DNA from: Gammaproteobacteria bacterium
GTDB taxonomy: Bacteria; Gemmatimonadota; Gemmatimonadetes; Longimicrobiales; Gaopeijiaceae
DNA: 64,000 bases
Assembly (NCBI GenBank): GCA_028819075.1
Contig: JAPPMM010000017.1
Location: 1-64,000, forward strand
Direction: 5' to 3'
Under the pieces are notes generated by a model. It did no database searches and was not told where the DNA came from. It saw only the letters and a program-made list of their open reading frames with translations. Below, piece after piece: positions 1 to 14,746 of this stretch. The position numbers were made by a program, and so were the translations under genes. Positions within the stretch are counted from its first letter, which is position 1. Every line of letters starts with the position of its first letter.

Positions 1-341
1 GCCGGTCGATGCCCGTCGGCTTCGCGGCTGAGTCCGCGGAGTGACCGGCGAGCGGTGTCGGCGGCGTTGCCACCGCTTCGGCGCCGGTCCCCCCGGCCTC
101 CGGCACGGACTTCGTCCGTTCCTTCCGCCGGGGTCGAGTCCTTCCCCACCCCGCCCTGCAATGACTGCCGGATGCGGGTGGAGGTGGCTGGTCCTGCGTG
201 TCCGGTTCGCTTTGGGGGTCGCCGGACATGAAATGGCCGTTCGGCCGGACACGGCCCCGGTCGTCGATGTCGCGGGCACGCTGGCGGTTGCGCCACGGCC
301 AGCGGAGCGCCGGTGCCGATCCGCGCTCCTTGGACGTGGCT

Positions 342-434
342 GGGAGCGACCCCCCATTTCGGCATGCCTCAATCGGCACCGGGGAGGATGAAGCCGGACA
401 GCCCCATCCTCCCCGCCGTTGCGGGGTCACTCCC
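342..434. repeat. Nested inverted repeat, module 1
   Basis: The outer arms gggagcgacccc (342-353) and ggggtcactccc (423-434) are reverse complements with one mismatch. Nested inside is a perfect 10-base pair, ggggaggatg (381-390) with catcctcccc (405-414), around a 14-base loop. The same layout recurs at 610-698, so this looks like one copy of a repeated structured unit, not a chance hairpin. Confidence 0.55.
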
Positions 435-609
435 AACCAGCAGTCCTTCCAGGAAGGGGGTCGGGCGCCGCTTCGAGGCGGGGCATCACCAACTCGCCAG
501 CCGAAGCCGCGGTGCTGCCTAGGCCGGGGCCATGGTCGGGGCGGACGTTGTCCGTGCGTGTGCGGCCAGGCATGTCGGATTTGGCCTTCCCGCGCGGGAT
601 TGCTGGACC

Positions 610-698
610 GGGAGCGACCCCAGGCGAGGGGGGGATGGCCTGCACATCCCAACCGCCGCCGTGGCGTGTGAGGCGTGCCGAACACCCGGGTCGCTCCC
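610..698. repeat. Nested inverted repeat, module 2
   Basis: The outer arms gggagcgaccc (610-620) and gggtcgctccc (688-698) pair perfectly over 11 bases. An inner hairpin is formed by gggatg 632-637 with catccc 645-650. The left arm is identical to that of module 1, 268 bases upstream, and the overall sizes match (93 and 89 bases), while the sequence between the arms differs. That pattern would fit conserved RNA structure, or two copies of a decayed repeat. Confidence 0.55.
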
Positions 699-865
699 GT
701 CAACGGACGCAAGCGTCCGCCCGTCACCGGCCGCTCCGGCGGATTCGTCACAAACGCAACGACTCCAGCAACATGCGGCATCGGAGGCGTGTCACATCCA
801 AGCGCGGTTTTCATGCACAACGACCCCGATGTCACACGGACACTCCTGGATCGGCAACGGGCCAC

Positions 866-895
866 GTCCACGGGCGTTCAAATCCCGACTCCGCC
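866..895 (+). other. tRNA/tmRNA 3'-end-like segment
   Basis: Bases 870-885 have the form cggg-N(9)-cccg around gttcaaat, the consensus of a T-loop. They are followed at 889-895 by ctccgcc, which resembles a tRNA or tmRNA acceptor strand. No matching 5' half (ggcggag) was found upstream, so this is not a working tRNA. Tyrosine recombinases often leave such 3' fragments as attachment-site copies, and one is encoded at 2778-3935. The stem is imperfect and chance is possible. Confidence 0.25.
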
Positions 896-1038
896 GAAGC
901 GACTCGAACGCCATACCGAATAGCTGTCGATCATGCCTCCGGGGAGGCCCGACCGGAGCAAAGCCCTCATCTCGACGAGGCGGTGAAGGCAGCCGTTCCG
1001 CCAGCGCATTCCAGACCGCACGACCGCCGGTGAGGCAG

Positions 1039-1067
1039 TTGGCGCATCGTTCCAAGCCAAGTACTGT
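1039..1067 (+). promoter_or_regulatory. Candidate sigma-70 promoter for the 1112 gene
   Basis: TTGGCG (1039-1044) and TACTGT (1062-1067) are separated by 17 bases, about 45 bases before the start codon at 1112. The call rests on motif match and position only. Confidence 0.35.
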
Positions 1068-1111
1068 CCAACCACACAGGGACGCCAAGGAGCCAACGTG
1101 TAGGTGCAGCC

Positions 1112-2419
1112 ATGCGAACGACCCCCAGGAAAGCGAAGCAGGCCCCAGGCGATCGGCCACTTCACCCGCGCTCGCGTATCGGAGGACTGGTTTCAGCGGC
1201 AACCGCCGCTCTCCTCATCGCCTGCGGACCCGACGCGCGCTCCTCCGACCGGATGCTCGACACCGTCGTGGAAACCATCGGCGATACCGGGGTTGTTCGC
1301 ACGCTGGCCGGAAGCGTCTGGGTCGAGGAGGCGACGCTCGTGCCGGAGATCACGATCGGCATGCTCGACGGGCCCGAGGAGTATCTCTTCGGGCGCATCG
1401 GGTCGGTCGCCGTGAACGACGACGGCACGGTATACGTCTTGGACCGGCTGGAGCAGCATGTCCGCGTCTTCGACTCGCTCGGAGTCTATCTCGAAACCCT
1501 GGGACGCCGGGGTGAGGGCCCCGGCGAGTTCAGCAGCGCCGAGGCGATTGCTGCGTTGCCCGGCGGACGCCTCGCTGTGCGCGACCCCGAGAACCAGCGC
1601 GTCACGGTATTCGGTCCCGGCCCGGGGGAGACGGCCCTGTGGAGGTATTCGGCCAGTGCCGAAACCAGGGCACCGCTCTACACCGATGCCCGCGGCCGGA
1701 CTCTACTACTCGCCAGCGATCCGACACCCGGGCGTGCGCTTGTCATGCAGATCATCGTTCTGGGTCTGGACGGGACGCCTCTCGACACGCTTCCGGAACC
1801 GTCGAACGACTACCAACCGCCCTTCGTGAGAGCTGAGGCTCCCGGGCTGTCGTTGAGTTACGGCGTCCCCTTCACTCCGCGGTTTCTCTGGACCGTCCAC
1901 CCGAGCGGCCACTTCCTCACCGGCCTCTCCTCCGACTACCGAATCGACCTCGCCCGCAACGACGGCGTACTCCGGATCGAGCGCAGCCGGGACCCGGTCC
2001 CCGCGTCGACCGCGGAGCGGGCCTACCAGCGCGAACGCATCGTCGGGAGCATACGCCGGTTACTCCCGGGCTGGGAGTGGGACGGTCCGGCGATTCCGAG
2101 TCACAAACCGTTCTTCCGGGAGCTGCTGGCCGGCCGGGACGGGCGCATCTGGGTGCGGCTGTGGACCGAGGGACGACCGGTGGACAACGTGGATCACGAT
2201 CCCGGCGATCCCGGGTCGCTTTCGATAATCTGGGAGGAAGAGGCCCGGTACGATGTCTTCGAGCCGGACGGGACCTATCTGGGCGTCGTTGTGACACCGG
2301 ACGAGTTTTCCAGCTTCCCGGCCCCGGTATTCGACGGCGACCGTGTGTGGGCAGTGACGGCGGACGAGCTGGGAGTGGAACGGGTCGTGCGGTACCGGAT
2401 CCAGACGGGGCGCCTGTGA
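1112..2419 (+). CDS. Lipoprotein six-bladed beta-propeller protein
   Basis: The 435-residue product begins with a basic stretch, a hydrophobic segment and the lipobox LIAC (Cys38), so it should be a lipoprotein on the periplasmic or outer face. The body has repeated blade-like units such as 'VNDDGTVYVLDRLEQHVRVFDS' (broken here as VNDDGTVYVLD then RLEQHVRVFDS), typical of NHL or 6-bladed propellers. The ATG at 1112 has AGG eight bases upstream. Nothing indicates an enzyme; such proteins usually bind ligands or partners. It stands alone between the structured region and the integrase, so context gives no function. The specific role is unknown. Confidence 0.75.
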   Translation: MRTTPRKAKQAPGDRPLHPRSRIGGLVSAATAALLIACGPDARSSDRMLDTVVETIGDTGVVRTLAGSVWVEEATLVPEITIGMLDGPEEYLFGRIGSVAVNDDGTVYVLDRLEQHVRVFDSLGVYLETLGRRGEGPGEFSSAEAIAALPGGRLAVRDPENQRVTVFGPGPGETALWRYSASAETRAPLYTDARGRTLLLASDPTPGRALVMQIIVLGLDGTPLDTLPEPSNDYQPPFVRAEAPGLSLSYGVPFTPRFLWTVHPSGHFLTGLSSDYRIDLARNDGVLRIERSRDPVPASTAERAYQRERIVGSIRRLLPGWEWDGPAIPSHKPFFRELLAGRDGRIWVRLWTEGRPVDNVDHDPGDPGSLSIIWEEEARYDVFEPDGTYLGVVVTPDEFSSFPAPVFDGDRVWAVTADELGVERVVRYRIQTGRL

Positions 2420-2456
2420 ACCTCCCCGACAGTGAGGCGTTGAGTTCACTGCGTCG

Positions 2457-2573
2457 TTATCTCAGGCTCCAGCGCGAAGGGCGATCCGCTTCGCGGCGCT
2501 TTGGAGCCACGCTGATGGCGAACCGTTGGTAAGTGGCCCCGAGCTTGCTGAAGTCTGGGGTGTTGGTGGTCAT
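2457..2573 (-). CDS. Possible 38-residue peptide or gene remnant
   Basis: A short frame on the minus strand starts MTTNTPDFSKLGATYQRFAI and stops after 38 residues. AAGG lies eight bases before its ATG. It has no recognisable domain. It might be a small peptide or the 5' stub of a gene interrupted next to the integrase. Its C-terminal half overlaps the inverted repeat at 2465-2508, which weakens the case for coding. The rest of the 2420-2777 gap shows nothing else I recognise. Confidence 0.2.
   Translation of the reverse strand: MTTNTPDFSKLGATYQRFAISVAPKRREADRPSRWSLR
2465..2508. repeat. Two-tier inverted repeat after the beta-propeller gene
   Basis: ggctcca (2465-2471) pairs with tggagcc (2502-2508), and inside it cgcgaag (2473-2479) pairs with cttcgcg (2489-2495). 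It begins 46 bases after the stop at 2419 but has no T-tract, so a simple intrinsic terminator is unlikely. It could be a terminator remnant, a recombination site or part of a mobile element. Confidence 0.45.
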
Positions 2574-2777
2574 GGCGGGCCTTATCCTTTGCTTTCCCGA
2601 GCGAACGGGCAACCCACCAAGGGCGACGCCGGGGCACGGAATTGTCCTCCCGGTGGCCGTCTACCCTGGTAAGTAGCATCCCTGTCAAAGGGGTGCCGGC
2701 ACTGGTCAAGACGCCTCTTCCCGGCGAAGTTTCGTTCGCGCAGATCGTGCAGTCCGTCTTCGAGGAGGAATCGAACG

Positions 2778-3935
2778 ATGGCACGCACGAAACGAAGCCG
2801 CCGGAGCTACGGCGCCGGCGAATGGGGCCGGAACCGGGTAAGGGTGTTCCCCGATCCCAAGACCGGCATCTTCCAGATCGAGTGGCGCGAGAACGGGCGC
2901 AGGCTCACCCGGTCGCTGAAACACCGCGACTGGCGGCGCGCGAAGAGGCAGGCAGATCAGTTCGCCGCCGGGTTCATCGACGCGCCGAACGGCAAGGCCG
3001 AAGCGGAGTCCGAGCCGCTCACGCTGGAAAAGCTGTTTGACATCTACGGTGAGGAGGTGACGCCCGCGAAGGGCAGGCACACCCGGCTGCACGACAGGGC
3101 CGCCATGGCGATGTTCCTCGCGTGCTTCGGCAGGGACCGGAAGCCGGGAACGCTCTCGCAGCGCGACTGGGACCGGTTCATCCGGTTGCGGCGCGCGGGG
3201 AAGGTCGGTCCGAGCGGCGAGCCCGTGTCCGACCGGACGGTCGAGCGGGACCTGAGGTTCCTGCTCGCGGTCCTCAACTGGGCCGGGCGGTCGAGGGACG
3301 AGGAGGGAAGGCTCCTCCTCGAAGCCAATCCCCTGAGGGGCCTCAAGCCGCCCAGGGAGAAGAACCCGACTCGGGTGCTGCTCGCCGCCGCTGAGTACGA
3401 AGCCCTGTTGGAGGCGTCGCGGGAGATGGACTGGCGCTTCCGCGTCGCGCTGGTCCTGGCGCACGAGACGGGGCACCGCATCGGCGCGATCCGCCAACTC
3501 AGGTGGTCGGACATCGGCCTCGGAACCGGGGTCATTCGGTGGCGCGGCGAACATGAGAAGACGGGCTACGAGCACCGGACCCCGTTGACCGACGAGGCGC
3601 TCGCCGTCCTCGACGAGGCGCGGAGGCGGAACCCGGGGATCGGAAACGCTCCGCTGCTGCCCGCGCCGAAGAACCCCACGAAGTGCATGCACCGATGCCT
3701 GGTCGCCAAGTGGTGGAGGAAGGCCGAGGCGCTCGCCGGGCTGGAACCGAAGCGGGGGCGCGGCTGGCATTCGCTGAGGCGCAAGTTCGCTAGCGACCTC
3801 ATGGACCAGCCCCTCAAGGTGCTCTGCGAGCTGGGCGGCTGGAAGACGGCCCAGACGGTGCTTCAGTGTTATCAGCGGGCCGACGAGGACAAGCTCAGGA
3901 AAGCCCTCGCGGAGCGCGGGCGCATGGCCTCCTAG
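2778..3935 (+). CDS. Tyrosine recombinase / phage-type integrase
   Basis: The 385-residue protein has the layout of an integrase: an N-terminal arm-binding part with many Arg and Lys, a SAM-like core-binding part (about 80-170), and a C-terminal catalytic domain. Catalytic residues that can be read are Arg234 (HRIGAIRQL), Lys261, His331 and Arg334 (HSLRRKF), Trp355 in the second His position (ELGGW), and nucleophile Tyr365 (LQCYQ). A GAGGAGG site precedes the ATG. It probably moved a genomic island or prophage, but no phage or conjugation genes remain nearby. The flanks hold a structured non-coding region upstream and hsp20 downstream. A defined att pair was not found. Confidence 0.88.
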   Translation: MARTKRSRRSYGAGEWGRNRVRVFPDPKTGIFQIEWRENGRRLTRSLKHRDWRRAKRQADQFAAGFIDAPNGKAEAESEPLTLEKLFDIYGEEVTPAKGRHTRLHDRAAMAMFLACFGRDRKPGTLSQRDWDRFIRLRRAGKVGPSGEPVSDRTVERDLRFLLAVLNWAGRSRDEEGRLLLEANPLRGLKPPREKNPTRVLLAAAEYEALLEASREMDWRFRVALVLAHETGHRIGAIRQLRWSDIGLGTGVIRWRGEHEKTGYEHRTPLTDEALAVLDEARRRNPGIGNAPLLPAPKNPTKCMHRCLVAKWWRKAEALAGLEPKRGRGWHSLRRKFASDLMDQPLKVLCELGGWKTAQTVLQCYQRADEDKLRKALAERGRMAS

Positions 3936-4022
3936 CGCAATCAGCGGGAACAGAATAGCGGGAATCGGGCCAACGATTTCCGTAAGTTCATTGGTCGCAT
4001 AAGATGTGGATTCGCGACCCCA

Positions 4023-4106
4023 TGCCATTTTGGCAGACTTTTGCCTTTCGTCCCCCGGATCGCAACCCCGCCCCATCCCGCGCATCCGCCACCTGACAAA
4101 ATGGCA
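4023..4106 (+). promoter_or_regulatory. Paired activator-like sites upstream of hsp20
   Basis: TGCCA-TTT-TGGCA (4023-4035) and TGACA-AAA-TGGCA (4094-4106) share the form TGNCA-N3-TGGCA. Their centres are 71 bases apart, close to seven helical turns. Their position relative to the sigma-54 promoter at 4117 suits binding sites for an enhancer-binding activator. The activator itself is not in the window. Confidence 0.55.
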
Positions 4107-4116
4107 GACTCGGGGC

Positions 4117-4133
4117 TGGCACGCTCCCTGCCA
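4117..4133 (+). promoter_or_regulatory. Sigma-54 (-24/-12) promoter of hsp20
   Basis: TGGCACG-ctccc-TGCCA contains the invariant GG (4118-4119) and GC (4130-4131) exactly ten bases apart and matches the -24 consensus TGGCACG fully. Transcription would start near 4143, giving a leader of about 80 bases before the hsp20 ATG at 4223. Confidence 0.65.
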
Positions 4134-4222
4134 CTGCCGGGGCCGAACGCGCATGACAAGCTCAGGCATCAGGAAGCCTGACGACGCGGATTTCAGTCAC
4201 AAGAATCCAATGGAGAACACAC

Positions 4223-4672
4223 ATGACGACCATCGCCAGGTATCGTTCGCTTTCGCCCTCGCAGGTGCTGCGGGCCTTCAACGCCGCTCTTCCGAGTGGC
4301 CCGGCCTTTCCCTTCGGGGCCTTCATCAACACGGACTGGGTGCCCCCGGTCGACGTCGCGGAGACTGCGGACTCGATCCTCGTGACCGCGGAACTCCCGG
4401 GCGTCTCGTCCGACGACGTCGAGATCCAGGTCGAGGAGAACGTGCTCACGATCCGGGGCGAGAAGCATGAGGAGCGCGAGGAGGAGGACACCGAGCGCCA
4501 CATGCACATCTCCGAGCGGATCACGGGGAGCTTCAGCCGCTCCTTCACCCTGCCGCGCAAGGTGGACATCGAGGGCATCAACGCCGACTTCGGCGAGGGG
4601 GTGCTGAAGGTCAGCGTCCCGAAGGCGCCCGAGACTCGCGCCCGCAGGATCGAGGTGAAGGCGCGCGCCTGA
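4223..4672 (+). CDS. Small heat shock protein, Hsp20 family
   Basis: This 149-residue protein matches the family length. An alpha-crystallin domain spans about residues 38-135, ending in GVLKVSVPK, which contains the family's G-V-L element. The acidic block EEREEEDTERH lies within the domain as in other class A bacterial Hsp20s. It acts as an ATP-independent holdase that keeps unfolding cytosolic proteins soluble. It is monocistronic: a sigma-54 promoter with paired upstream sites precedes it and a strong hairpin follows it at 4727. Stress control through an enhancer-binding protein is therefore likely. Confidence 0.93.
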   Translation: MTTIARYRSLSPSQVLRAFNAALPSGPAFPFGAFINTDWVPPVDVAETADSILVTAELPGVSSDDVEIQVEENVLTIRGEKHEEREEEDTERHMHISERITGSFSRSFTLPRKVDIEGINADFGEGVLKVSVPKAPETRARRIEVKARA

Positions 4673-4726
4673 CGAGTCGCGACCCGAGGCCCGCCCCTGC
4701 CGCGGCGCCGCACAACGCAGGACCCC

Positions 4727-4754
4727 ATCGGACCCGGTTCCCGCCGGGTCCGAT
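4727..4754 (+). terminator. Intrinsic terminator-like hairpin after hsp20
   Basis: atcggacccgg (4727-4737) pairs perfectly with ccgggtccgat (4744-4754) around a six-base loop. Only a short pyrimidine run (tctc) follows, so termination may be partial or assisted. Confidence 0.65.
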
Positions 4755-4773
4755 TCTCATGCCGGACCCAGGT

Positions 4774-4801
4774 TTGATGGCATCCCCGGGGATGCTACTT
4801 T
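4774..4801 (+). promoter_or_regulatory. Promoter of trpS with palindromic spacer
   Basis: TTGATG (4774-4779) and TACTTT (4796-4801) are separated by exactly 16 bases. Those 16 bases, gcatccccggggatgc (4780-4795), form a perfect palindrome. The palindrome looks like a dimeric repressor or activator site built into the promoter spacer. Transcription would start about 85 bases before the trpS ATG. Confidence 0.5.
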
Positions 4802-4895
4802 GGTGGCGACGTTTCTCCGTTCCCGGGCAGGCGGGCATGAGCCCATCCGCCGATCCCGGTCCCGTCGGCGCCCGTAACCCGAGAAGAACCCGCGC

Positions 4896-5939
4896 ATGAC
4901 CCACGCCAGCACCCGGCCCCCGCCGGGATCGCGCGTCTTCAGCGGAATGCAGCCCAGCGGCGAAGCCCACCTCGGCAACTACCTGGGTGCGCTGCGCCAA
5001 TGGGCCGCCATGCAGGACGACTACGACTGCATCTACTGCATCGTGGACCAGCACGCCATCACGGGGCGCTACGATGCCGCGGCGCTTCCCGGGGCGGTCT
5101 TCGATCTCGCGATCAGCTTTCTGGCCTCGGGGCTCGATCCCGAGCGCTCCATCATCTTCGTGCAGTCCGACGTCCCCGAGCACACCGAGCTGAGCTGGCT
5201 CTTCAACTCGGTGGCGCCCATCGGCGACCTGGAGCGCATGATCCAGTTCAAGGAGAAGTCCGAGCGCATGGAGTCGGTGCCGGTCGGCCTCCTCAACTAC
5301 CCCGTGCTGCAGGCCGCGGACATCCTCATCTACCGCGCCGACGTGGTGCCCGTGGGGGAGGACCAGCGCCAGCACCTCGAGCTGACCCGGGACATCGCGC
5401 GCAAGTGGAACGCCCGCTTCGGCGACTACCTGCCGGAGCCCCAGGCCTACATACCGCGCGCGGGCCGCATCGTGGGGCTGGACGGCCGCTCCAAGATGAG
5501 CAAGTCGCTCGGCAACACGGTCGGCATCCTCGACGAACCCGACGAGATCCGCAGGCGCGTGCGCACGGCGGTGACCGACCCGGCGCGCATCCGCAAGACC
5601 GACCCCGGCCGCCCCGAGGTCTGCAACGTCTATTCGCTGCACGAACATTTCGCGGACGACGAGCGCCTCGACGACATCGCCCACCAGTGCCGCACGGCGC
5701 AGCGCGGCTGCGTCCAGTGCAAGGGCATGCTGGCCGAAGAGATCGACGAGGCCTTCGCCCCCATGCGGGAAGTCGCCGCGCACTATCGCGCGCACCCCGA
5801 GGAGGTGCGGCGGATTCTCGACGATGGAGCGCGGAGGGCCGGGGCCATCGCCCGGGAAACCATGGCGGAGGTGCGGTCGCGCATGGGGCTCGACTGGAAG
5901 CGCACCGCCCGAGCATTGACGGAGGAAACGGAGTCATGA
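4896..5939 (+). CDS. trpS: Tryptophan--tRNA ligase
   Basis: TrpS charges tRNA-Trp with tryptophan in the cytosol. The 347-residue product has the class I signatures: the HIGH-type motif as HLGN (25-28) and KMSKS (200-204). Other conserved stretches are FSGMQPSGEAHLGNY at the start and the substrate-binding region around VGLLNYPVLQAADIL. The length is normal for bacterial TrpS. Its last bases overlap the ATG of the DapA-like gene (ATGA), so the two are co-transcribed. The palindrome in the promoter suggests a specific regulator of this pair. Confidence 0.96.
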   Translation: MTHASTRPPPGSRVFSGMQPSGEAHLGNYLGALRQWAAMQDDYDCIYCIVDQHAITGRYDAAALPGAVFDLAISFLASGLDPERSIIFVQSDVPEHTELSWLFNSVAPIGDLERMIQFKEKSERMESVPVGLLNYPVLQAADILIYRADVVPVGEDQRQHLELTRDIARKWNARFGDYLPEPQAYIPRAGRIVGLDGRSKMSKSLGNTVGILDEPDEIRRRVRTAVTDPARIRKTDPGRPEVCNVYSLHEHFADDERLDDIAHQCRTAQRGCVQCKGMLAEEIDEAFAPMREVAAHYRAHPEEVRRILDDGARRAGAIARETMAEVRSRMGLDWKRTARALTEETES

Positions 5940-6862
5940 ACCTGGCCGGAGTCTTCATCCCCGCGGTTACGCCCTTCGACCCCGTGACCGGAGACGTGGA
6001 CGTTGTCGCGATGCGCGCCAACCTGCGGAGCTGGCTGGCGCATCCGGTGCACGGAATCGTCATCGCCGGATCCACCGGAGAGGCGGTGCTGCTCAGCCGC
6101 GGTGAGCGCAGGCGCCTCATCGAGGCGGCGGCCGGCGTCATGAGCGACGACCGCCTGCTGATCGCCGGGACGGGGGTGGAGTCCACACGCGGCACCATCA
6201 GGCTCGGCCGGGAGGCCGCCGACGCCGGCGCCGACGCCGTGCTGGTGCAGCCCCCCGCGTATTACCTGGGCGCGATGACGCCGGAGGCCGTGCGCGACCA
6301 CTACACCGCGGTGGCCGACGCTTCCCCGGTGCCGGTTCTCATCTACCAGGCGCCGCTGCGCTTCAGCACCCTCGACTTCCCCTCCGGGCTGGTGGCCGAA
6401 CTCTCCCGGCATCCCAACATCGTCGGGATCAAGGATTCACGGGGAAGCCTGGAGAAGGTCGCCGAACTGCTGGACTGCACCGGGCGCGACTTCGCGGTGA
6501 TCGTCGGCAACGGCGCAGGGCTGTATGCCGCCCTGGAGCTGGGCGCGGCGGGCGGGATTCTGGGAGTCGCCAACCTGGCTCCCGCCGAGAGCGCCGGGAT
6601 CTTCCAGCGCTTCGCGGAAGGGCGCACCAGCGAGGCGGGCCGTCTCCAGGAGCGGGTCGCGCCGGTCCACAAGAAGTTGGTGGCGGGATTCGGGGTGCCG
6701 GGGGTGAAGGCCGGGCTGGATCTGCTGGGAGGGCATGGCGGAGCGCCCCGCCCGCCGCTCAGGCCGCTCCCGGCCGGCAAGGTCGGGGCGACGGAGGCCG
6801 TTCTGCGCCGGGCCGGGCTGCTCCGGCCGGAGCGCGCGCTTTCCGGTTCCGCCTCCGCATGA
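5936..6862 (+). CDS. DapA/HOGA-family lyase
   Basis: A class I aldolase of the dihydrodipicolinate synthase superfamily, 308 residues. Readable features are the GSTGE loop near residue 45, the Tyr in LIYQAP, and the Schiff-base Lys in IVGIKDS. The YNVP motif of true DapA is YQAP here and GTTGE is GSTGE. The family also includes 4-hydroxy-2-oxoglutarate aldolase and N-acetylneuraminate lyase, so the substrate is uncertain. The start overlaps the trpS stop by four bases. The C-terminal tail is Pro/Arg/Ala rich. Lysine biosynthesis remains one possibility but is not shown. Confidence 0.8.
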   Translation: MNLAGVFIPAVTPFDPVTGDVDVVAMRANLRSWLAHPVHGIVIAGSTGEAVLLSRGERRRLIEAAAGVMSDDRLLIAGTGVESTRGTIRLGREAADAGADAVLVQPPAYYLGAMTPEAVRDHYTAVADASPVPVLIYQAPLRFSTLDFPSGLVAELSRHPNIVGIKDSRGSLEKVAELLDCTGRDFAVIVGNGAGLYAALELGAAGGILGVANLAPAESAGIFQRFAEGRTSEAGRLQERVAPVHKKLVAGFGVPGVKAGLDLLGGHGGAPRPPLRPLPAGKVGATEAVLRRAGLLRPERALSGSASA

Positions 6863-6908
6863 GGACGGGCTCGAACCGCCTCACACCGCACCCGCCGGGA
6901 GCCTGATC

Positions 6909-8198
6909 TTGTCGACGAACGCCGCCCGAGGCCGCTGCACGGTCGTGGTGGGTTGCCAATGGGGCGACGAGGGCAAGGGCAAGATCGTCGACGTGCTGGC
7001 GGAGTCGGCTGATATTGTCGCCCGCTACCAGGGGGGCGCCAACGCCGGTCACACCGTCCATGTGCACGGCGACGAGTTCATCCTGCACCAGATTCCCTCC
7101 GGCATCCTCCACCCCGGCAAGCGCTGTCTGCTCGGCAATGGCGTGGTCCTCGATCTGCCGAAGTTTTTCGCGGAGTACGATGCCCTGGTGGAGCGCGACA
7201 TCGAGCTGGAGGGGCGGATCGGGATCAGCCAGCGCGCCCACCTGCTGCTGCCCTACCACCGCGCGCTCGACCACGCCGCGGAAGTACGCGCCCGCGAGAA
7301 GATCGGCACCACCGGACAGGGAATCGGGCCGGCCTACGTGTCCAAGTCCGGGCGGCGCGGGGTCCGCGTCACCGACCTGGGCAATGCCTCGCGCCTGGAG
7401 CGTCTGGTGGAGCGGGCCATGGGGGATGCCGTGGAGGAGCTGCAGGTCGGGGAGTTCACGGCCACGGAGCTCGAGGCCCGGGTATGGGCGGCGCTCGCAC
7501 TGGCGGGCCGCACCCTGCCGCTGGCCACCGACACCGGCCGCGAGATCGTGGAAGCGCTCACCGCCGGGCGTTCGGTCCTGATGGAGGGGGCGCAGGGGAC
7601 GGCGCTCGACCTCGACCACGGCACCTATCCCTTCGTGACGTCCTCCAACACCACCGCGGCCGCGGCCGCCACCGGGCTGGGGATCGGCCCGACCGCCATC
7701 AGCGCGGTGCTGGGCGTGGTCAAGGCGTACACGACGCGGGTGGGCAACGGCCCCCTGCCGACCGAGTTCGACGAGGAGATGGGCGAGCGTGTGCGTGAAC
7801 TGGGCGGGGAGTTCGGCGCGACCACCGGCCGGCCGCGCCGCTGCGGCTGGTTCGACGCGGTGCAGGCGCGCTACGCGGCCCGGGTGAACGGGCTCACCGG
7901 CCTGGCGGTGACCAAGCTGGACGTACTCGACTCCCTGGACGAGATCCGGATCGCCACCGGCTACCGCGTCGACGGCGATCTCACCACGGAGTTTCCCGCC
8001 GATACGTGGTCGCTGTCCCGGGTGGAGCCCGTGCTGGAGCGGCACCCGGGGTGGCGCTTGCCGACCACGGAGGCCCGTCACATCGCCGACCTTCCGCCTG
8101 AAGCGCGCAGCTACCTCGACCGCCTGCAGGAGCTGACCGGAGTCCCCATCGAGATCGTCTCGGTCGGATCCCGGCGCGAGCAGATCATTCACGTCTGA
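6909..8198 (+). CDS. purA: Adenylosuccinate synthetase
   Basis: PurA joins IMP and aspartate using GTP, the first committed step to AMP. The N-terminal motif CQWGDEGKGKIVD holds the catalytic Asp and His-loop region (with NAGHT further on), and GTTGQGIGPAY and the C-terminal TKLDVLDSLDEI stretch are diagnostic. I chose the TTG at 6909 because GGGAG lies seven bases upstream and it gives 429 residues, close to the usual 430. A longer frame reaches back into the previous gene without conserved sequence. It sits four bases before ffh. Confidence 0.95.
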   Translation: MSTNAARGRCTVVVGCQWGDEGKGKIVDVLAESADIVARYQGGANAGHTVHVHGDEFILHQIPSGILHPGKRCLLGNGVVLDLPKFFAEYDALVERDIELEGRIGISQRAHLLLPYHRALDHAAEVRAREKIGTTGQGIGPAYVSKSGRRGVRVTDLGNASRLERLVERAMGDAVEELQVGEFTATELEARVWAALALAGRTLPLATDTGREIVEALTAGRSVLMEGAQGTALDLDHGTYPFVTSSNTTAAAAATGLGIGPTAISAVLGVVKAYTTRVGNGPLPTEFDEEMGERVRELGGEFGATTGRPRRCGWFDAVQARYAARVNGLTGLAVTKLDVLDSLDEIRIATGYRVDGDLTTEFPADTWSLSRVEPVLERHPGWRLPTTEARHIADLPPEARSYLDRLQELTGVPIEIVSVGSRREQIIHV

Positions 8199-8201
8199 TC
8201 G

Positions 8202-9518
8202 ATGTTCGACCGCCTGGGAAAGAGGCTCGACAGGGCCCTGGGGCGCTTTCGCCAGCGGGGCATCCTCACCGAGCCCATGATCCGCAAGGGGCTGCGGGAG
8301 GTGCGCCGCGCCCTGCTCGAGGCGGACGTCAACTTCAAGGTCACCCGGGACTTCCTGAAGCGGGTGGAGAAGCGGGCGGTGGGCGAGGGGGTCATCCGCT
8401 CGATCTCGCCTGGACAGCAGGTCGTCAAGATCGTGCACGACGAGCTGGCGGGGCTGCTGGGCGAGGAGGTGGCCGACCTGACCTGGGCGCGAAAGCCGCC
8501 CACGGTGATCCTCATGGCCGGCCTGCAGGGCTCGGGAAAGACCACCACGGCCGTGAAGCTGGCGCACCTGATCGCGCGCGAGGGGCGCCGTCCGCTGCTC
8601 GCCGGGTGCGACGTGTACCGCCCGGCGGCGGGGGAGCAGCTGCGCACCCTGTGCGGGCGCGCGGACCTGCCGGTGCTGGCGGGCGCGCGCGGCGACGACC
8701 CCGTGGAGGTGGCGCGGGCCGCGCTCGATGACGCCCGCGCGCGCGGGCGCGACGCGTTAATAGTCGACACGGCGGGCCGCCTGCAGATCGACGAGCCCAT
8801 GATGGCCGAGCTGGGGCGCCTGCGGACGGAGCTGGCGGCGACCGAGGTGCTGCTGGTGGCCGACGCGATGACCGGACAGGAGGCGGTGAACATCGCCCGC
8901 GGATTCGACCGGGCGCTGGGCCTCACCGGGGTGGTGCTCACCAAGCTCGACGGCGACGCGCGCGGCGGAGCGGCGCTCTCGATCCGCGGGGTCACCGGCA
9001 GGCCCATCAAGTTCGTGGGCGTGGGCGAGGGACTGGACGACCTGGAGCGGGTCGATCCCCGCCGGCTGGCGGGGCGCATCCTCCAGATGGGCGACGTGGT
9101 GGGGCTGGTGGAGCGGGCCCAGCGCTCCATCGACGCCGAGGCCCAGGCGCAGATCGAGGAGAACGTGCTGCGCAAGGGACGCTTCACCCTGGAGGACTTC
9201 CTGGTGGCGCTTCGCCAGGTGCAGGCGATGGGCCCGCTGGAGCAGGTCATGAAGATGATCCCCGGGATGAGGCGCAAACTGCCGGTGGGCAACGTCGACC
9301 CGAAGAAGATCAGGCATGTGGAGGCCATCATCCTCTCGATGACGCCCGCGGAGCGGAGCGAGCCGCGCCTCCTCGACCGCTCCCGCCGCATCCGCATCGC
9401 CCGGGGGAGCGGCCGGCCGGTGTCGGAAGTCAACCGCCTGTTGAAGCAGTTCAAGGAAATGCAGAAGTTGATGAAGCAGATGCGGGGCATGGCGCCCCCG
9501 CTGAACCAGATGCGCTGA
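8202..9518 (+). CDS. ffh: Signal recognition particle protein Ffh
   Basis: Ffh is the SRP GTPase that binds signal sequences of membrane proteins and 4.5S RNA and docks with FtsY. The 438 residues contain the N domain, the G domain with G1 [10 protein letters not shown] (from 107), DTAGRLQ and [10 protein letters not shown], and a Met-rich M domain ending [13 protein letters not shown]. All are intact and the length is normal. It directly precedes rpsP, the common ffh-rpsP-rimM-trmD order. Confidence 0.96.
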
Positions 9519-9559
9519 CCGCCCGGGAGAGGCGGGCAGGCAAGAACCCGAGGAGACAC

Positions 9560-10009
9560 ATGTCGGTACGAATTCGACTTCGCAGAATGGGCCGGAAGAA
9601 GGCTCCCCACTACCGCGTGGTGGTGGCGGACGGCGACTCGCCGCGTGACGGGCGCTTCGTCGAGACCATCGGCTACTACAAGCCACTTTCCACGCCTGCC
9701 CGCGTGGTCGTAGACCTGGAGCGCGCCGACTACTGGCTGGGCCGGGGAGCGCAGCCGTCGGCCACCGTGAGGTCGCTGCTGAACAAGGCGCGCAAGGGCG
9801 GGGACGCCAGCGTGGCCGTGGGCGAGGCGGATACGGCCGCCGAGAAGGCCCGGCGCTCGGAGCAGTTGGCCGCGCGGCGCCAGGCGGAAGCGGACGCGCA
9901 GGCGAAGCTGGAGGCGGAGGCGAGAGCCGAGGCGGCGGCAGCCCAGGCCGCGGCTCGAGCGGAAGCCCAGGCCGCGGCCGAAGCTGGCGAAAACGGCGAA
10001 TCCGGGTAG
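9560..10009 (+). CDS. rpsP: 30S ribosomal protein S16 with long C-terminal extension
   Basis: The first 85 or so residues are a standard S16 ([20 protein letters not shown], then [11 protein letters not shown]), needed for 30S assembly. The remaining 60 residues or so are a low-complexity Ala/Glu/Arg/Gln segment that should form one charged helix or coiled coil. Many S16 proteins end near residue 90, so the tail is an addition. AGGAG precedes the ATG. The gene is part of the ffh-rpsP-rimM-trmD run. Confidence 0.95.
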
Positions 10010-10023
10010 TACCGGGGTCCCGA

Positions 10024-10566
10024 ATGGACTCCGCCCATCCTTCGCACCTCGTCGTCGGGCACCTCAACAAGGCGCACGGCACCAAGGGCGAACTCTTTCT
10101 CTGGCCGCTGACGGCCGATCCGGGCGAGGCGTTCGCCGCCGGAGCGGGGTTGCATCTGGCCGACGAAGCCGGGGAGAAGCCGGATCCCGCGTTCGCCGAG
10201 GTCCGCGTGCGGGGGGTCCGCCCCTTCAAGCGCGGCTTTCTGATCCGGCTGGAAGGCATCGATTCCCGGGACCAGGCCGAGTGGCTTGCGGGCCGCTACG
10301 TGCTCCGGCCGCTTGCCGACGTGCCCCCGCTCGAGGAAGGGGAGGTCTATTACCACGACCTGCTGGGCATGCGCGTGGAATCCGGCGACGGGGAGGCGGT
10401 CGGAGAGGTCGTCGAGGTCTACGAGCTGAGCCCGGTGCATCTGCTCCAGGTGGCGCGCGAGTCCGGCACCGCGCTGATTCCCTTCGCGCGCGACATGGTG
10501 CGCCGGCTGGACCGCGAGGGGAAGCGGCTGGTCATGGACCTGCCGGACGGCTTGCTGGACCTCTGA
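10024..10566 (+). CDS. rimM: Ribosome maturation factor RimM
   Basis: RimM helps mature the 30S head by binding S19. The 180 residues show the N-terminal barrel (VGHLNKAHGTKGELFLWPLT) and the C-terminal PRC-barrel domain (EGEVYYHDLLGMRV, IPFARDMV). The length is usual. It starts 15 bases after rpsP, and its stop lies just inside the ribosome binding region of trmD, so translational coupling is likely. Confidence 0.93.
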   Translation: MDSAHPSHLVVGHLNKAHGTKGELFLWPLTADPGEAFAAGAGLHLADEAGEKPDPAFAEVRVRGVRPFKRGFLIRLEGIDSRDQAEWLAGRYVLRPLADVPPLEEGEVYYHDLLGMRVESGDGEAVGEVVEVYELSPVHLLQVARESGTALIPFARDMVRRLDREGKRLVMDLPDGLLDL

Positions 10567-10579
10567 GGAGGTGCGGGCG

Positions 10580-11302
10580 GTGACGTCGGATGCCGGTTCG
10601 GGCGCGCAGCCCGGCACGCCCATGCGGCTGACCTTCGTGACGATCTTCCCGGAGTTCTTCGAGGTTCCGCTGGCCACCAGCATCCCCGGGCGAGCCGCCC
10701 TTGCGGGGGCCGTGCAGTACCAGGTCGTCGATCTGCGCGACTTCACCCGCGACCGACATCGCACCGTGGACGACGCGCCCTACGGGGGCGGCGGCGGGAT
10801 GGTGATGAAGCCGGAGCCGTTCTTCGAGGCGGTGGAGTCTCTCGACCGGGCGGGCCGGGTGATCCTGCTTTCCCCCCGCGGCCGGCTCTTCACCCACCGC
10901 GACGCCGTGCGGCTCTCCCTGGAACCGTCCCTGACCCTGCTCTGCGGGCACTACAAGGACGTCGACCAGCGCGTCGCCGACCACCTCGCCGACGAGGAGA
11001 TCTCGATCGGCGACTTCGTGCTGTCGGGGGGCGAGGCCGCGGCGCTGGTGGTCGCGGACGCCATCGTCCGGCTGCTGCCGGGGGTGCTTGGGGACCACGA
11101 CTCGGCGGCTTCGGACTCGTTCTACGACGGCCGCCGGCTGAGCGCGCCCTCCTACACCCGTCCCGCCGAATACCGGGGTCTCCCGGTGCCCGAAGTGCTG
11201 CGCAGCGGCGACCACGCGCGCATCGAGGCCTGGCGCGAAGCGGAAGCCGAACGCATCAGCGCCGCACGTCGATCCGAGCCGCCCGGAAGGGGTGGCCGCT
11301 AA
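10580..11302 (+). CDS. trmD: tRNA (guanine-N1)-methyltransferase TrmD
   Basis: TrmD methylates G37 of tRNAs reading CNN codons, preventing frameshifts. Motifs of the knotted SPOUT fold are visible: VTIFPEFF, DDAPYGGGGGMVMKPEP, ALLCGHYKDVDQR (as LLCGHYKDVDQR) and EISIGDFVLSGGE. AGGAGG at 10566-10571 lies eight bases before the GTG at 10580, so I prefer this over the GTG at 10571. An internal ATG at 10622 would also keep the whole domain. This is the last gene before the ribosomal cluster is interrupted by the SusC/SusD island. Confidence 0.94.
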   Translation: MTSDAGSGAQPGTPMRLTFVTIFPEFFEVPLATSIPGRAALAGAVQYQVVDLRDFTRDRHRTVDDAPYGGGGGMVMKPEPFFEAVESLDRAGRVILLSPRGRLFTHRDAVRLSLEPSLTLLCGHYKDVDQRVADHLADEEISIGDFVLSGGEAAALVVADAIVRLLPGVLGDHDSAASDSFYDGRRLSAPSYTRPAEYRGLPVPEVLRSGDHARIEAWREAEAERISAARRSEPPGRGGR

Positions 11303-11340
11303 CGTCAACGCACGCGCGCGACGAGGTGCCGGACTGGTAA

Positions 11341-11369
11341 TTCGGATTGAGTTCTTACAGAATTATTAT
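11341..11369 (+). promoter_or_regulatory. Candidate promoter of the SusC gene
   Basis: TTCGGA (11341-11346) and TATTAT (11364-11369) have a 17-base spacer in a locally AT-rich pocket. This pocket is unusual for the region and lies about 75 bases before the SusC ATG at 11446. The -10 is good and the -35 is weak. Confidence 0.4.
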
Positions 11370-11445
11370 CCGCGCATTCTGCGCGCGCGGACGGGGTGGA
11401 TGTGGGGTGGCGGGGAAACGTTACCCTTCGCAAGAGGAGCAGCGC

Positions 11446-14400
11446 ATGAAACACAACCAATGTCCAACACGTAGGGTGTGGGGCGCCTTTGCGCTTCCCC
11501 TGCTGGCCGCCAGCCTGGCCTTTGCGCCCGGCCTGAGCGCGCAGCAGGGCGGAGTGATCACGGGCCGCGTCACGGAGGAAGGCTCCGGTCGCGCCCTTGC
11601 CTCCGCCCAGGTGTACGTCGAGGGCTCCGGCCTCGGAACCCTCACCAACTCAAGCGGGCAGTTTCTGCTGCTCAACGCCCCCGCCGGGGAGCACACGGTC
11701 ACCGTCGAGCTGGTCGGCTACCGCTCCGCCTCGCAGACGGTGACGGTGGCGGCGGGCGAGACCGCCAGCGTCGACTTCGCCATCGCCGTGACCGCGCTCG
11801 CCCTCGACGAGATCGTGGTGACCGGAACCGGCGTCGCCACCGAGAAGCGCAGGCTCGGCCATACCATCGCGACGCTCGATGCCGCCGAACTCGAGAACGC
11901 CCCCATCTCCGACTTCAGCCAGCTCATCGCCGGCCGCGAGCCCGGCGTGGTGGCGCTGCCTTCCTCGGGCTACACCGGCGAAGGCGCCCGCATCCGCATC
12001 CGCGGGTCGGCGTCGCTCTCGCAGCTCAACGAGCCCATCGTCTACGTCGACGGGATCCGGGTGGACCGCTCCGCCGTGCAGAACTTCAACGGCCAGGGCA
12101 ACCCATCCCGCCTGGACGACATCCCTCCAGAGTCCATCGAGCGGGTCGAGATTCTGAAGGGCGCCGCGGCCGCGACGCTCTACGGAACCGAGGCCTCGAA
12201 CGGCGTGATCCAGATCTTCACCAAGCGGGGCAACGTCGGCGCGCCGCGCTTCACCTTCCAGACGGACCTGACCGGGATCTCGGTGCCTACCAACCGCATC
12301 CTGCCGGTCGCGGACTTCGCCGGGCGGGTATGCGCCAGCCCAGGATGCACCGGAGACGGTGACGCCAAGAGGCTGGCCGATGCAGTGAACCGGATGTCAA
12401 CGCGCTGGGGACAGTCGGTCTCCCCCTGGGAGCCGGTCGAGCGCGACCTCATCCCCGAGCTCCTCACCACCGGTTTCGGCCAGACCTACTCCGGGTCGGT
12501 TCAGGGCGGTTCCAGCGTGTTCCAGTACTTTGCCTCGGCGCGCCTTGCCAGAGAGGACGGTCCCTACGATGCCGCGCGGAACTTCGACGCGGTGGAGGGA
12601 GTCGAGCCGGAGAACGACACCAACCGGCGGGCTTCGATCCATTCGAACTTCACGGTGGTCCCGAACGACAATCTCCGCATTGGCGTGACCACGCTCTATT
12701 CGGACATGGAGCACCACACGCCCGACAACTCCAACAACATCTACGGGGTGTTCTCGTCCGCGCTGATGTCACAGCCGCGGCTCGCCAACGCCGACCCGAA
12801 CCTGGGGCAGATCAACTACTACGGCCAGCCGGCCTTCGCCACGCTGCGCGAGAACGCGTACCAGTTGAACTTCGTGAACTCGCAGCACTTCGCGGGTGCC
12901 ACCAACATCAACTTCACGCCGACCGAGAACTTCCGCCTCGACGGAACCTTCGGCATCGACTTCACCTCCGACGACGCGGTCTCCTTCCGGCCCTACCGCT
13001 GGAACGTGGACGGCTTCTCCGGCTCGACGCCGGACGGCAGCAGGAACGTCAACGAGGACCGCAGCCGGGAGATCACGGCGGACGTCAAGGGATCCTACAT
13101 CTTCAGCACCGACCGGATCGAGAACACGTTCCTGTTCGGCGGCCAGGGATTCCTGCGCCAGCGGCAGTCCGCGGGCGGAAGCGGACGCGATTTCCCGGGC
13201 CCGGGTCTGGAGACCCTGTCGGCGCTCGGTTCCGAGTCTTCCTACGAAAACTGGCTCAGGGTCACGCAGATCGGCGGATACCTGCAGGACCAGATCGGGT
13301 GGGACAACTGGCTTTTCCTCACCGTCGGTGGGCGCTGGGACGCGAACTCGGCGTTCGGTGAAGCGTTCAACTACGCCTTCTATCCGAAGGCCAACTTCGC
13401 GGTCGTACCCAGCGAGATGTGGGAGAGCGAGACCTTCTCCTCACTGCGCGTCAAGGGCGCGTACGGCACCTCCGGACTGCAGCCGGGCGCCTTCGACAAG
13501 TTCACGACCTTCTCGTCGCTGGGCACCGAGGTGGGTCCGGGCGTCCAGCCCTCCAACCTGGGCAACGACCAGTTGAAGCCCGAGGTGTCCACCGAGTTGG
13601 AATTCGGCTTCGACCTGGGGCTCTTCAACGATCTCTGGTCCGTTGAGGCGACGTACTGGGATCGCACGGTTACCGACGCCATGGTGGCACGCCAGTTCCC
13701 GGTGACGGGCGGATTCACCCAGACGCAGCTCGACAACATCGGCGAAGTGAAGGCTTCCGGCCTCGAGATCGGCGTGCGCGGCGCCCTGGTGCAGCGGCCG
13801 GGTCTCTCGCTGAACGTCTTCGCCAACACCGCCTACCTCAAGGAAGAGATCACCGACATGGGCGGTGCTCCTCCCCTGAAGACCGGGGGCAGCTACCCGC
13901 GCTACCGCAACTTCCTGACCGAGGGCTACACGCCCGGGGCCTTCTTCGGCGCCAGGGTCGCAGACCTGGCCATTCCGCTGAACATTCTCGCTCCGGTCAA
14001 CGGCGAGTGCGTGGCTCCCACCCAACAGCAGGCTCTGGACTACTTCAGCGTGCCCCGCAACCCCAACAGCTTCAAACCGCTGGCGATCGGCAACGAAACC
14101 TTCGGTACGCCGAACGGCGGGCTGGCGTCCCACAACTGCGGAGCGGGGCTGCTCGACAGCTATCTCGGCAAGCCCACCCCGGACTTCGCCGGTTCCTTCG
14201 GATTCAACCTGGCGTTCCTGGGCAATTTCGAGCTCAACTCGCTGCTGGAGTACAAGATCGGTCACCAGGTGCAGGACCTGTCGGGGATGTTCCGGCGGGC
14301 CAACAACTTCATCGGCCGCAACACGCCGCGCTCCGCAGAGCTCTACGCGGCCATGCTGAACCCGAGTTCGTCCGCGCAACAGCGGCTCGATGCCGCGATC

Positions 14401-14730
14401 GCGTGGGCCCACGAGGTCGAAGGGCTCTCGCCGATGAGCGGGATGAACGGGGTGTACGACGCCGACTGGATCCAGTGGCGCGAGCTGTCGCTCACCTACC
14501 GGGTGCCGGCATCGGTCGTCGAGGGCTGGGGCCTTTCCACCGCCACCGTGAACCTGGGTGTGCGCAACCTCCGGCTCTTCATGCTGGGCGACTACCCGGG
14601 CATGGATCCCGAAGGCAACGTCCTCGGGCGCTGCAACTCGGGCCTGAGCTGCAATTTCCTGGACTCGACGGAGGGCTGGGGCATTCCGGTGCCGCGTCGC
14701 CTCACGCTGTCCACGCGCTTCACGTTCTGA
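11446..14730 (+). CDS. SusC/RagA-type TonB-linked outer membrane transporter
   Basis: The 1094-residue protein has a signal peptide ending LSAQQG, a carboxypeptidase-regulatory-like domain (about 28-115), the SusC-type linker LDEIVVTGTG, a plug domain (PIVYVDGIRVDRS, LKGAAAATLYGTEASNGVIQ) and a long 22-strand barrel ending in LSTRFTF with the terminal Phe. It would import an oligomeric nutrient, such as a glycan or peptide, using TonB energy. AGAGGAG precedes the chosen ATG; the frame runs further upstream but without conserved sequence. The SusD partner follows after 16 bases. The substrate cannot be inferred, since no hydrolase accompanies the pair. Confidence 0.93.
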   Translation: MKHNQCPTRRVWGAFALPLLAASLAFAPGLSAQQGGVITGRVTEEGSGRALASAQVYVEGSGLGTLTNSSGQFLLLNAPAGEHTVTVELVGYRSASQTVTVAAGETASVDFAIAVTALALDEIVVTGTGVATEKRRLGHTIATLDAAELENAPISDFSQLIAGREPGVVALPSSGYTGEGARIRIRGSASLSQLNEPIVYVDGIRVDRSAVQNFNGQGNPSRLDDIPPESIERVEILKGAAAATLYGTEASNGVIQIFTKRGNVGAPRFTFQTDLTGISVPTNRILPVADFAGRVCASPGCTGDGDAKRLADAVNRMSTRWGQSVSPWEPVERDLIPELLTTGFGQTYSGSVQGGSSVFQYFASARLAREDGPYDAARNFDAVEGVEPENDTNRRASIHSNFTVVPNDNLRIGVTTLYSDMEHHTPDNSNNIYGVFSSALMSQPRLANADPNLGQINYYGQPAFATLRENAYQLNFVNSQHFAGATNINFTPTENFRLDGTFGIDFTSDDAVSFRPYRWNVDGFSGSTPDGSRNVNEDRSREITADVKGSYIFSTDRIENTFLFGGQGFLRQRQSAGGSGRDFPGPGLETLSALGSESSYENWLRVTQIGGYLQDQIGWDNWLFLTVGGRWDANSAFGEAFNYAFYPKANFAVVPSEMWESETFSSLRVKGAYGTSGLQPGAFDKFTTFSSLGTEVGPGVQPSNLGNDQLKPEVSTELEFGFDLGLFNDLWSVEATYWDRTVTDAMVARQFPVTGGFTQTQLDNIGEVKASGLEIGVRGALVQRPGLSLNVFANTAYLKEEITDMGGAPPLKTGGSYPRYRNFLTEGYTPGAFFGARVADLAIPLNILAPVNGECVAPTQQQALDYFSVPRNPNSFKPLAIGNETFGTPNGGLASHNCGAGLLDSYLGKPTPDFAGSFGFNLAFLGNFELNSLLEYKIGHQVQDLSGMFRRANNFIGRNTPRSAELYAAMLNPSSSAQQRLDAAIAWAHEVEGLSPMSGMNGVYDADWIQWRELSLTYRVPASVVEGWGLSTATVNLGVRNLRLFMLGDYPGMDPEGNVLGRCNSGLSCNFLDSTEGWGIPVPRRLTLSTRFTF

Positions 14731-14746
14731 TCCAGGAGAGAGACTC

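Follow-up and report, generated by a model that had tools for sequence, protein, structure and literature searches.

The small heat-shock gene hsp20 and the chaperone gene dnaK of this Gemmatimonadota genus are probably controlled by sigma-54 through a palindromic operator and an orphan AAA+ activator bound to it; the same operator probably serves as the attachment site of integrase-bearing mobile elements. The promoter at 4117-4132 of the window (the whole 64,000-nucleotide stretch analysed here, part of contig C17 of a 4.4 Mb genome in 65 contigs) would be used by sigma-54 RNA polymerase to transcribe hsp20. An AAA+ enhancer-binding protein seated on phased upstream palindromes would open this promoter under protein stress. 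The same control would extend to dnaK across the order (three families) and to hsp20 in the family of the window genome, less clearly beyond; within the genus, lon may be an additional target. In the same genus, a clade of integrases would recombine at this palindrome, and in the window species an element appears to sit in the distal hsp20 operator. Since the palindrome is complete at each junction, control of hsp20 has probably been kept.

Features around hsp20 are listed in Table 1. The initial annotation described a -24/-12 element (GG-N10-GC) and two related 13-mers upstream of this gene; the element was confirmed by reading and by script, and the two 13-mers are present with starts 71 nucleotides apart. 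The promoter matches the sigma-54 consensus TGGCACG-N4-TTGCA at 10 of 12 positions, and would place the transcription start near 4143. It is the sole site scoring at least 10 in the window when both strands are scanned. In 1.34 Mb of related loci there are 36 such sites besides four at dnaK, a density of about one in 37 kb that makes a single occurrence in the window unremarkable; judged from its sequence, the hsp20 promoter is real by conservation and position, not by rarity. No Rfam element reached the gathering score in window positions 1-15000.

Table 1. Coordinates of the hsp20 control region and the adjoining mobile element in the window
Feature	Position	Strand	Remarks
Probable interior of mobile element	1..2777	.	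Inference; other end outside the window
Tyrosine integrase of mobile element, 385 aa	2778..3935	+	Pfam Phage_integrase, E 1.1e-17
Non-coding right end of mobile element, to operator	3936..4022	+	96% identity to a G001 element end
Distal operator TGCCATTTTGGCA, also right junction (attachment site) of mobile element	4023..4035	.	
Proximal operator, presumed activator site TGACAAAATGGCA	4094..4106	.	Same site in most genus members
Putative sigma-54 (-24/-12) promoter of hsp20, TGGCACGCTCCCTGCC	4117..4132	+	Read directly, located by script
hsp20, small heat-shock protein, 149 aa	4223..4672	+	Pfam HSP20, E 9.6e-25

Compared with L028, L029, L030 and L033, about 84 bp are absent from the window between the proximal operator and the promoter (4107-4116); in these relatives the segment carries further operator-like sites, and its loss is consistent with recombination between two operators. 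Genome G003 has two hsp20 copies 5 kb apart (C28:1034-1477 and 6266-6712), which are 84% and 92% identical to the window hsp20.

The 16-mer promoter of hsp20 is identical in all eight genus genomes for which hsp20 was fetched, while its flanks vary (G002 and G006 gave no match, and the second G003 copy was left out). The dnaK promoter scores 10 in 10/10 genus genomes. Outside the genus it scores at least 9 in 37 of 38 genomes and at least 10 in 31 of 38, spread over three families: 22/22 and 17/22 in f1 (the family of the window genome), 7/7 and 7/7 in f2, and 8/9 and 7/9 in f3. The one miss, in f3, has only 82 nt of upstream sequence, and locus L293, which starts inside dnaK, was dropped from the counts. 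For hsp20, scores of at least 9 and at least 10 were found in 18/18 and 17/18 f1 genomes outside the genus, and in 10/19 and 4/19 genomes of f2 and f3; four further f1 loci (G017, G022, G030, G034) score 10. The hsp20 loci are a subset of all matches, with one or two genes taken from genomes that have several.

Control upstream regions reach these scores rarely. Scores of at least 9 and at least 10 were found in 37 and 8 of 1095 regions of 250 nt, 42 and 8 of 1087 regions of 300 nt, and 71 and 11 of 1069 regions of 450 nt; none of them scored 11. Markov shuffles of the first 29 dnaK regions reached at least 10 in 15 of 1450 cases. A sigma-54-type promoter at dnaK thus appears to span all three families, and is less clear at hsp20 outside the family of the window genome. 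Order-wide sigma-54 control of hsp20 was considered and rejected, as the per-family recount (37 loci, including L042, L053 and L054, which score 8) limits it mainly to that family. Among 80 named loci with 10 kb flanks dnaK mostly lies farther out; two dnaK promoters were recovered there by an exact-start script and four by promoter scan, all from the genus.

These data bear on whether the -24/-12 match is a sigma-54 promoter at all. If it were not, hsp20 would be read from a sigma-70-type promoter or by read-through, for example from the integrase side, and the chance frequency of equal-scoring sites given above leaves room for this. Such an arrangement is very improbable given that the 16-mer is conserved against changing flanks and that promoters of this type recur at the same genes across genera. 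In addition, rpoN, whose absence had been named in the initial annotation as an argument against its proposal, was found in the window genome and is present in 58 of the 59 genomes. Control of dnaK or hsp20 by HrcA and its CIRCE element was also considered and rejected: HrcA is present in 57 of the 59 genomes, and no CIRCE was found at the scanned dnaK and hsp20 loci (L027-L056, L268-L297), where the best match to the consensus had 5 mismatches in 18 positions.

The operator is abundant in the genus. A looser pattern, TGNCANNNTGNCA, occurs 43 times in the window genome against 15 for the pattern read backwards; the stricter TGMCAWWWTGKCA occurs 24 times against 0. This stricter form is found 9-33 times per genome in 10/10 genus genomes, the window genome included (reversed control, 0-1). 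Outside the genus it occurs at least once in 13 of 49 genomes and is frequent in three (G030, 15; G033, 8; G034, 6). The operator is longer than the 13-mer, as the 24 exact sites have conserved flanks, approximately GTCTGCCA-N3-TGGCAGAC. The copy at 4023 has CCA at its left flank instead of the GTC found elsewhere; this is explained by its left side belonging to the mobile element.

Operators adjoin dnaK, clpB, lon and hsp20 (confirmed with Pfam) and other genes, and up to four genomes share conserved clusters at loci such as dnaK, clpB and argR. The spacings within pairs are phased: 33 distinct spacings from 20 locus groups follow a period of 10.5 bp (R 0.76, Rayleigh p ~7e-9), for spacings of 13-110 and at most one mismatch, with spacings within one locus not fully independent. 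In other genera, 26 of 38 dnaK and hsp20 promoters have a palindrome matching at least 7 of 8 fixed positions within 120 nt (L042, L053 and L054 lie outside this set); the shuffle control gave a mean of 1.4 and a maximum of 5 in 200 runs. The hsp20 gene of G030 has four exact operator copies before its promoter.

Operators were also read at further places. At L071 a conserved pair is flanked by the ends of convergent genes, and three operators lie between an argR-like gene and a deoxyhypusine-synthase-family gene (L064:2663-2739). In G001, a pair 31 bp apart is directly upstream of a uvrA-like gene (L138:2032-2075). The argR-like and uvrA-like genes and the convergent arrangement were assigned by reading.

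Operators and sigma-54 promoters coincide at few loci. In the window genome, a promoter scoring at least 9 lies within 120 nt at 3 of 17 operator clusters (hsp20, dnaK and lon, the two sites at lon each being one mismatch off); the clusters at clpB, argR, argF and hut have none. For this genome we therefore reject the idea that every operator acts as enhancer for a sigma-54 promoter close by, and the operator may have other uses (repression, other promoters) or exist partly as relic copies. The suggestion that the 13-mer defines a stress regulon for the lineage holds in that it marks several stress genes, and fails in that it is not generally tied to GG-N10-GC promoters. The nearest operator sites are 11-20 nt from the -24 element at hsp20 and dnaK, and adjacent to the promoter-like site at lon; such distances are close for classical enhancers, and the lon arrangement would also fit repression.

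The palindrome could instead serve a different protein, such as a heat-labile repressor, with another activator driving hsp20 and dnaK through sigma-54. The 14 of 17 clusters without a nearby sigma-54 promoter are in keeping with this alternative, as is the contact between palindrome and promoter-like site at lon. Repressors do coexist with such promoters, HrcA being nearly universal, and the window genome encodes six strong sigma-54 activator domains from which another activator could come. This choice is much narrower in G022 and G030, which have only two and three strong activator domains respectively, one of them the orthologue of the orphan candidate described below. Moreover, the sigma-54 promoters of two unrelated genes are repeatedly preceded by palindromes in different genera, and paired, phased sites suit sigma-54 activators. 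A different palindrome-binding protein is thus unlikely, though the alternative deserves to be taken seriously; sigma-54 activation from the palindrome is the preferred reading.

The initial annotation proposed looking for an orphan AAA+ activator, and one was found in the window genome at C19:108293-110065. It has an AAA+ domain (PF00158, E 1.1e-68), a Fis-type helix-turn-helix (HTH_8, E 1.7e-13) and a GAFTGA loop, which are the domain features of an enhancer-binding protein. A Pfam search gave no match to a receiver domain. Residues 1-142 are nevertheless predicted to adopt a receiver fold (pLDDT 85; modelled on the L298 protein, 99% identical, with 37 sequences), for which the best Foldseek match is 1xhe (E 7e-06), followed among others by NtrX (5m7p) and NtrC1 (4l4u). 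T9-H10 and T49 are invariant in 37/37 rows of this receiver type; there is no phospho-acceptor aspartate, and T49 stands at the end of strand 3 in every row. True receivers have acidic residues at such strand positions. As modelled, the receiver is degenerate, and the protein does not class as a two-component response regulator though it has the fold of one.

The activator has a match below 1e-100 in 56 of 59 genomes. The three without one (G002, G006, G007) all carry operators, and contig breaks may be behind the absent matches. The distance between dnaK and the activator gene is 7-14 kb in 26 of the 28 genomes that have both on one contig, and 20 and 59 kb in the other two; in the remaining genomes the two are split between contigs, or one of them is partial or absent. 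In G022, an exact operator lies ~119 nt above the matched stretch of the activator; no operator was found in the stretch read at the other 3 of the 4 activator loci from other genera. Operators precede argF in the window genome (G000), G002 and G007, and in the window genome argF heads the gene run that ends in the activator.

Among named records, the best 80 of 104 activator relatives carry titles of Gemmatimonadota or its subgroups, except three titled Gammaproteobacteria; the search patterns were drawn from the C19 family, and other phyla may also have it. Two public metagenome-assembled genomes with that title (L298, L299) have an activator 97-99% identical to the C19 protein and look mislabelled. 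Activator presence alone was rejected as an explanation of the exact operators, as the activator is near-universal and exact sites are frequent nowhere but in the genus, G030, G033 and G034; degenerate operator sites in the other genomes fit better. The orphan C19 protein is the likeliest activator of the palindrome-linked promoters, and would act by binding the palindrome.

The distal of the two upstream sites appears to have a second role. Both 13-mers had been taken for enhancer-type sites; this may stand, but an inserted element also has its junction at the 4023 site. A tyrosine integrase gene lies next to this junction, as is typical of a site-specific integrative element, and the putative left end of the element was placed on contig C24 (C24:7688). 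In G001, an element end at a different operator (L132) matches the final 300 bp of the window element at 96% identity; the far flank of this G001 site is unrelated (54%).

The integrase has 35 matches in the window genome, 19 of them near full length, and 2-49 matches per genome in 11 genus genomes. The 57 fetched loci (a subset of matches; 9 loci unparsed) yielded 51 integrase 3' ends, a few of them counted twice. An operator follows 13 of these ends, and the first copy begins 80-92 nt beyond the stop codon. The 13 include every near-full-length integrase with at least 80% identity to that of the window (11 of 11); among these 11, two pairs each represent a single insertion shared by two genomes of a species, and fragments are excluded (including G004:C157, at 83%). 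In a tree of 43 integrases, 9 of 11 operator-linked members group together, with support (81/92) below the level that the tool stars. The operator label changes twice on this tree against a shuffled mean of 9.9, and 0 of 500 shuffles were as low; two rows labelled 'other' (L089, L090; minus strand) abut a tRNA gene, which leaves the operator label unaffected.

Other related integrases abut tRNA genes or other sequence. By reading, the related integrases at L080, L212, L214, L089, L091, L205 and L215 abut tRNA genes. A junction at a tRNA-Leu 5' end reads TGCCGGGATGGCGG, which resembles the operator; this likeness may show how the operator became an integrase target. At L062:2387-2442 (G000:C29), two element left ends seem by eye to face each other across operators 43 bp apart. 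Two mazEF-like small genes (by reading) lie between an element end and hutF (Pfam) at L057:1719-3816.

Empty and filled sites can be compared at two loci, hsp20 and clpB, with each junction pair lying on two contigs. In L033 and L034 the hsp20 site is empty, and a single TGCCATTTTGGCA joins the thrA-side flank to the hsp20-side flank. The corresponding flanks in the window genome are 90-91% identical on the thrA side (C24) and 70-71% on the hsp20 side (C17); both run into an operator and then into element DNA, which matches the flank it replaces at 44-53%, the background level. L031 agrees on the thrA side (90%) and not on the other (53%; its upstream region is shorter); L030 has a different left flank (51%) and a matching right flank (71%). 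The second clpB operator carries an insertion in G001 (L130/L131), whereas the site is empty in G000, G007 and G002. Flanks of G000 and G001 are 84% identical on both sides here, and element ends 47% and 52%; in G007 and G002 the flanks are 65-66% and 78% identical. In the hut region, two junctions (C31 and C11 against L157) gave 96% for the hutI-side flank and only 59% for the C11 side.

The empty and filled sites, together with the 11/11 operator-linked integrases, point to the operator as the attachment site of this integrase clade. Recombination would take place within the 13-mer palindrome, and one element would join contigs C24 and C17. This raises the question of whether the palindrome is mainly a recombination site, or a REP-like repeat spread by integrase elements, whose location at heat-shock genes is secondary. 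Element ends account for seven of the 24 exact sites in this genome (three right; four left, by eye), and some sites are at gene ends or in convergent gaps. Conserved pairs are present at dnaK, clpB and hsp20 in genomes without an element there, however, and G030 has four of its 15 sites before hsp20; palindrome-like sites also precede dnaK and hsp20 in other genera. It is therefore highly unlikely that the palindrome is primarily a repeat, and an operator secondarily used by integrases is preferred.

A broader picture can be sketched tentatively, and we consider it possible but doubtful as a whole. In this Gemmatimonadota heat-shock switch, the orphan activator, perhaps held inactive by the DnaK encoded nearby, would drive dnaK and hsp20 through sigma-54, replacing sigma-32. 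A clade of integrases would have evolved to target its operator as attachment site, so that elements land in stress promoters genome-wide with the operator intact at both ends, perhaps in a manner tied to stress.

Core chaperone genes are usually thought to be under sigma-32, HrcA, HspR or similar control. Given an order-wide sigma-54 promoter at dnaK, a defined operator and a candidate activator, the control of heat-shock genes becomes testable in a poorly studied phylum. If the operator is indeed an attachment site, this would show how elements can reach many tolerated insertion sites in front of important genes and yet leave the control site intact. No description of sigma-54 control of dnaK with such an operator was found in searches of the open-licence literature, nor, in a narrower search of it, of an operator used as a mobile-element attachment site. 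In a Desulfovibrio vulgaris regulome paper (PMC4641369), the matches to heat shock (one reference) and chaperone (type III secretion) do not concern chaperone control.

Sigma-54 control of E. coli ibpB, offered in the initial annotation as a known precedent, is disputed: according to the available text of a sigma54 ChIP study, the signal at ibpB is background and misannotation is suggested (PMC4591121). The interpretation otherwise stands with regard to rpoN, promoter conservation beyond the genus and the orphan activator, and falls with regard to this precedent and the general link to GG-N10-GC promoters. Closer parallels are found in Bacteroidota and Planctomycetota, where the available text of PMC12316311 predicts sigma-54 promoters at dnaK, ibpA-type, groESL and grpE genes, of which dnaK and the ibpA type are shared with the present case; it further refers to grpE and groES of Bacteroides and Flavobacterium as dependent on sigma-54. 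Gemmatimonadota gave no match in its main text. No activator or operator is given for those genes in the available text, whereas here there are a palindrome, a candidate activator and order-wide conservation. Sigma-54 chaperone promoters have thus already been predicted elsewhere; the less usual feature is the proposed use of the operator as an attachment site.

The proposed activator resembles known enhancer-binding proteins in part. According to the available text of PMC2941729, several upstream sites scaffold the hexameric AAA+ activator NorR of E. coli, as proposed here; NorR has a GAF sensor for nitric oxide and another regulon, whereas the C19 protein has a degenerate receiver and sites very near the promoter. 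With NtrC/NtrX-type regulators the C19 protein has in common the predicted receiver fold, the AAA+ domain and HTH_8; it differs in having T9-H10 and T49 where, judged by strand position, true receivers have acidic residues. The window element resembles tyrosine-integrase islands at tRNA genes in that the integrase lies beside the junction. Unlike its relatives, which abut tRNA genes, the window integrase clade abuts regulatory palindromes.
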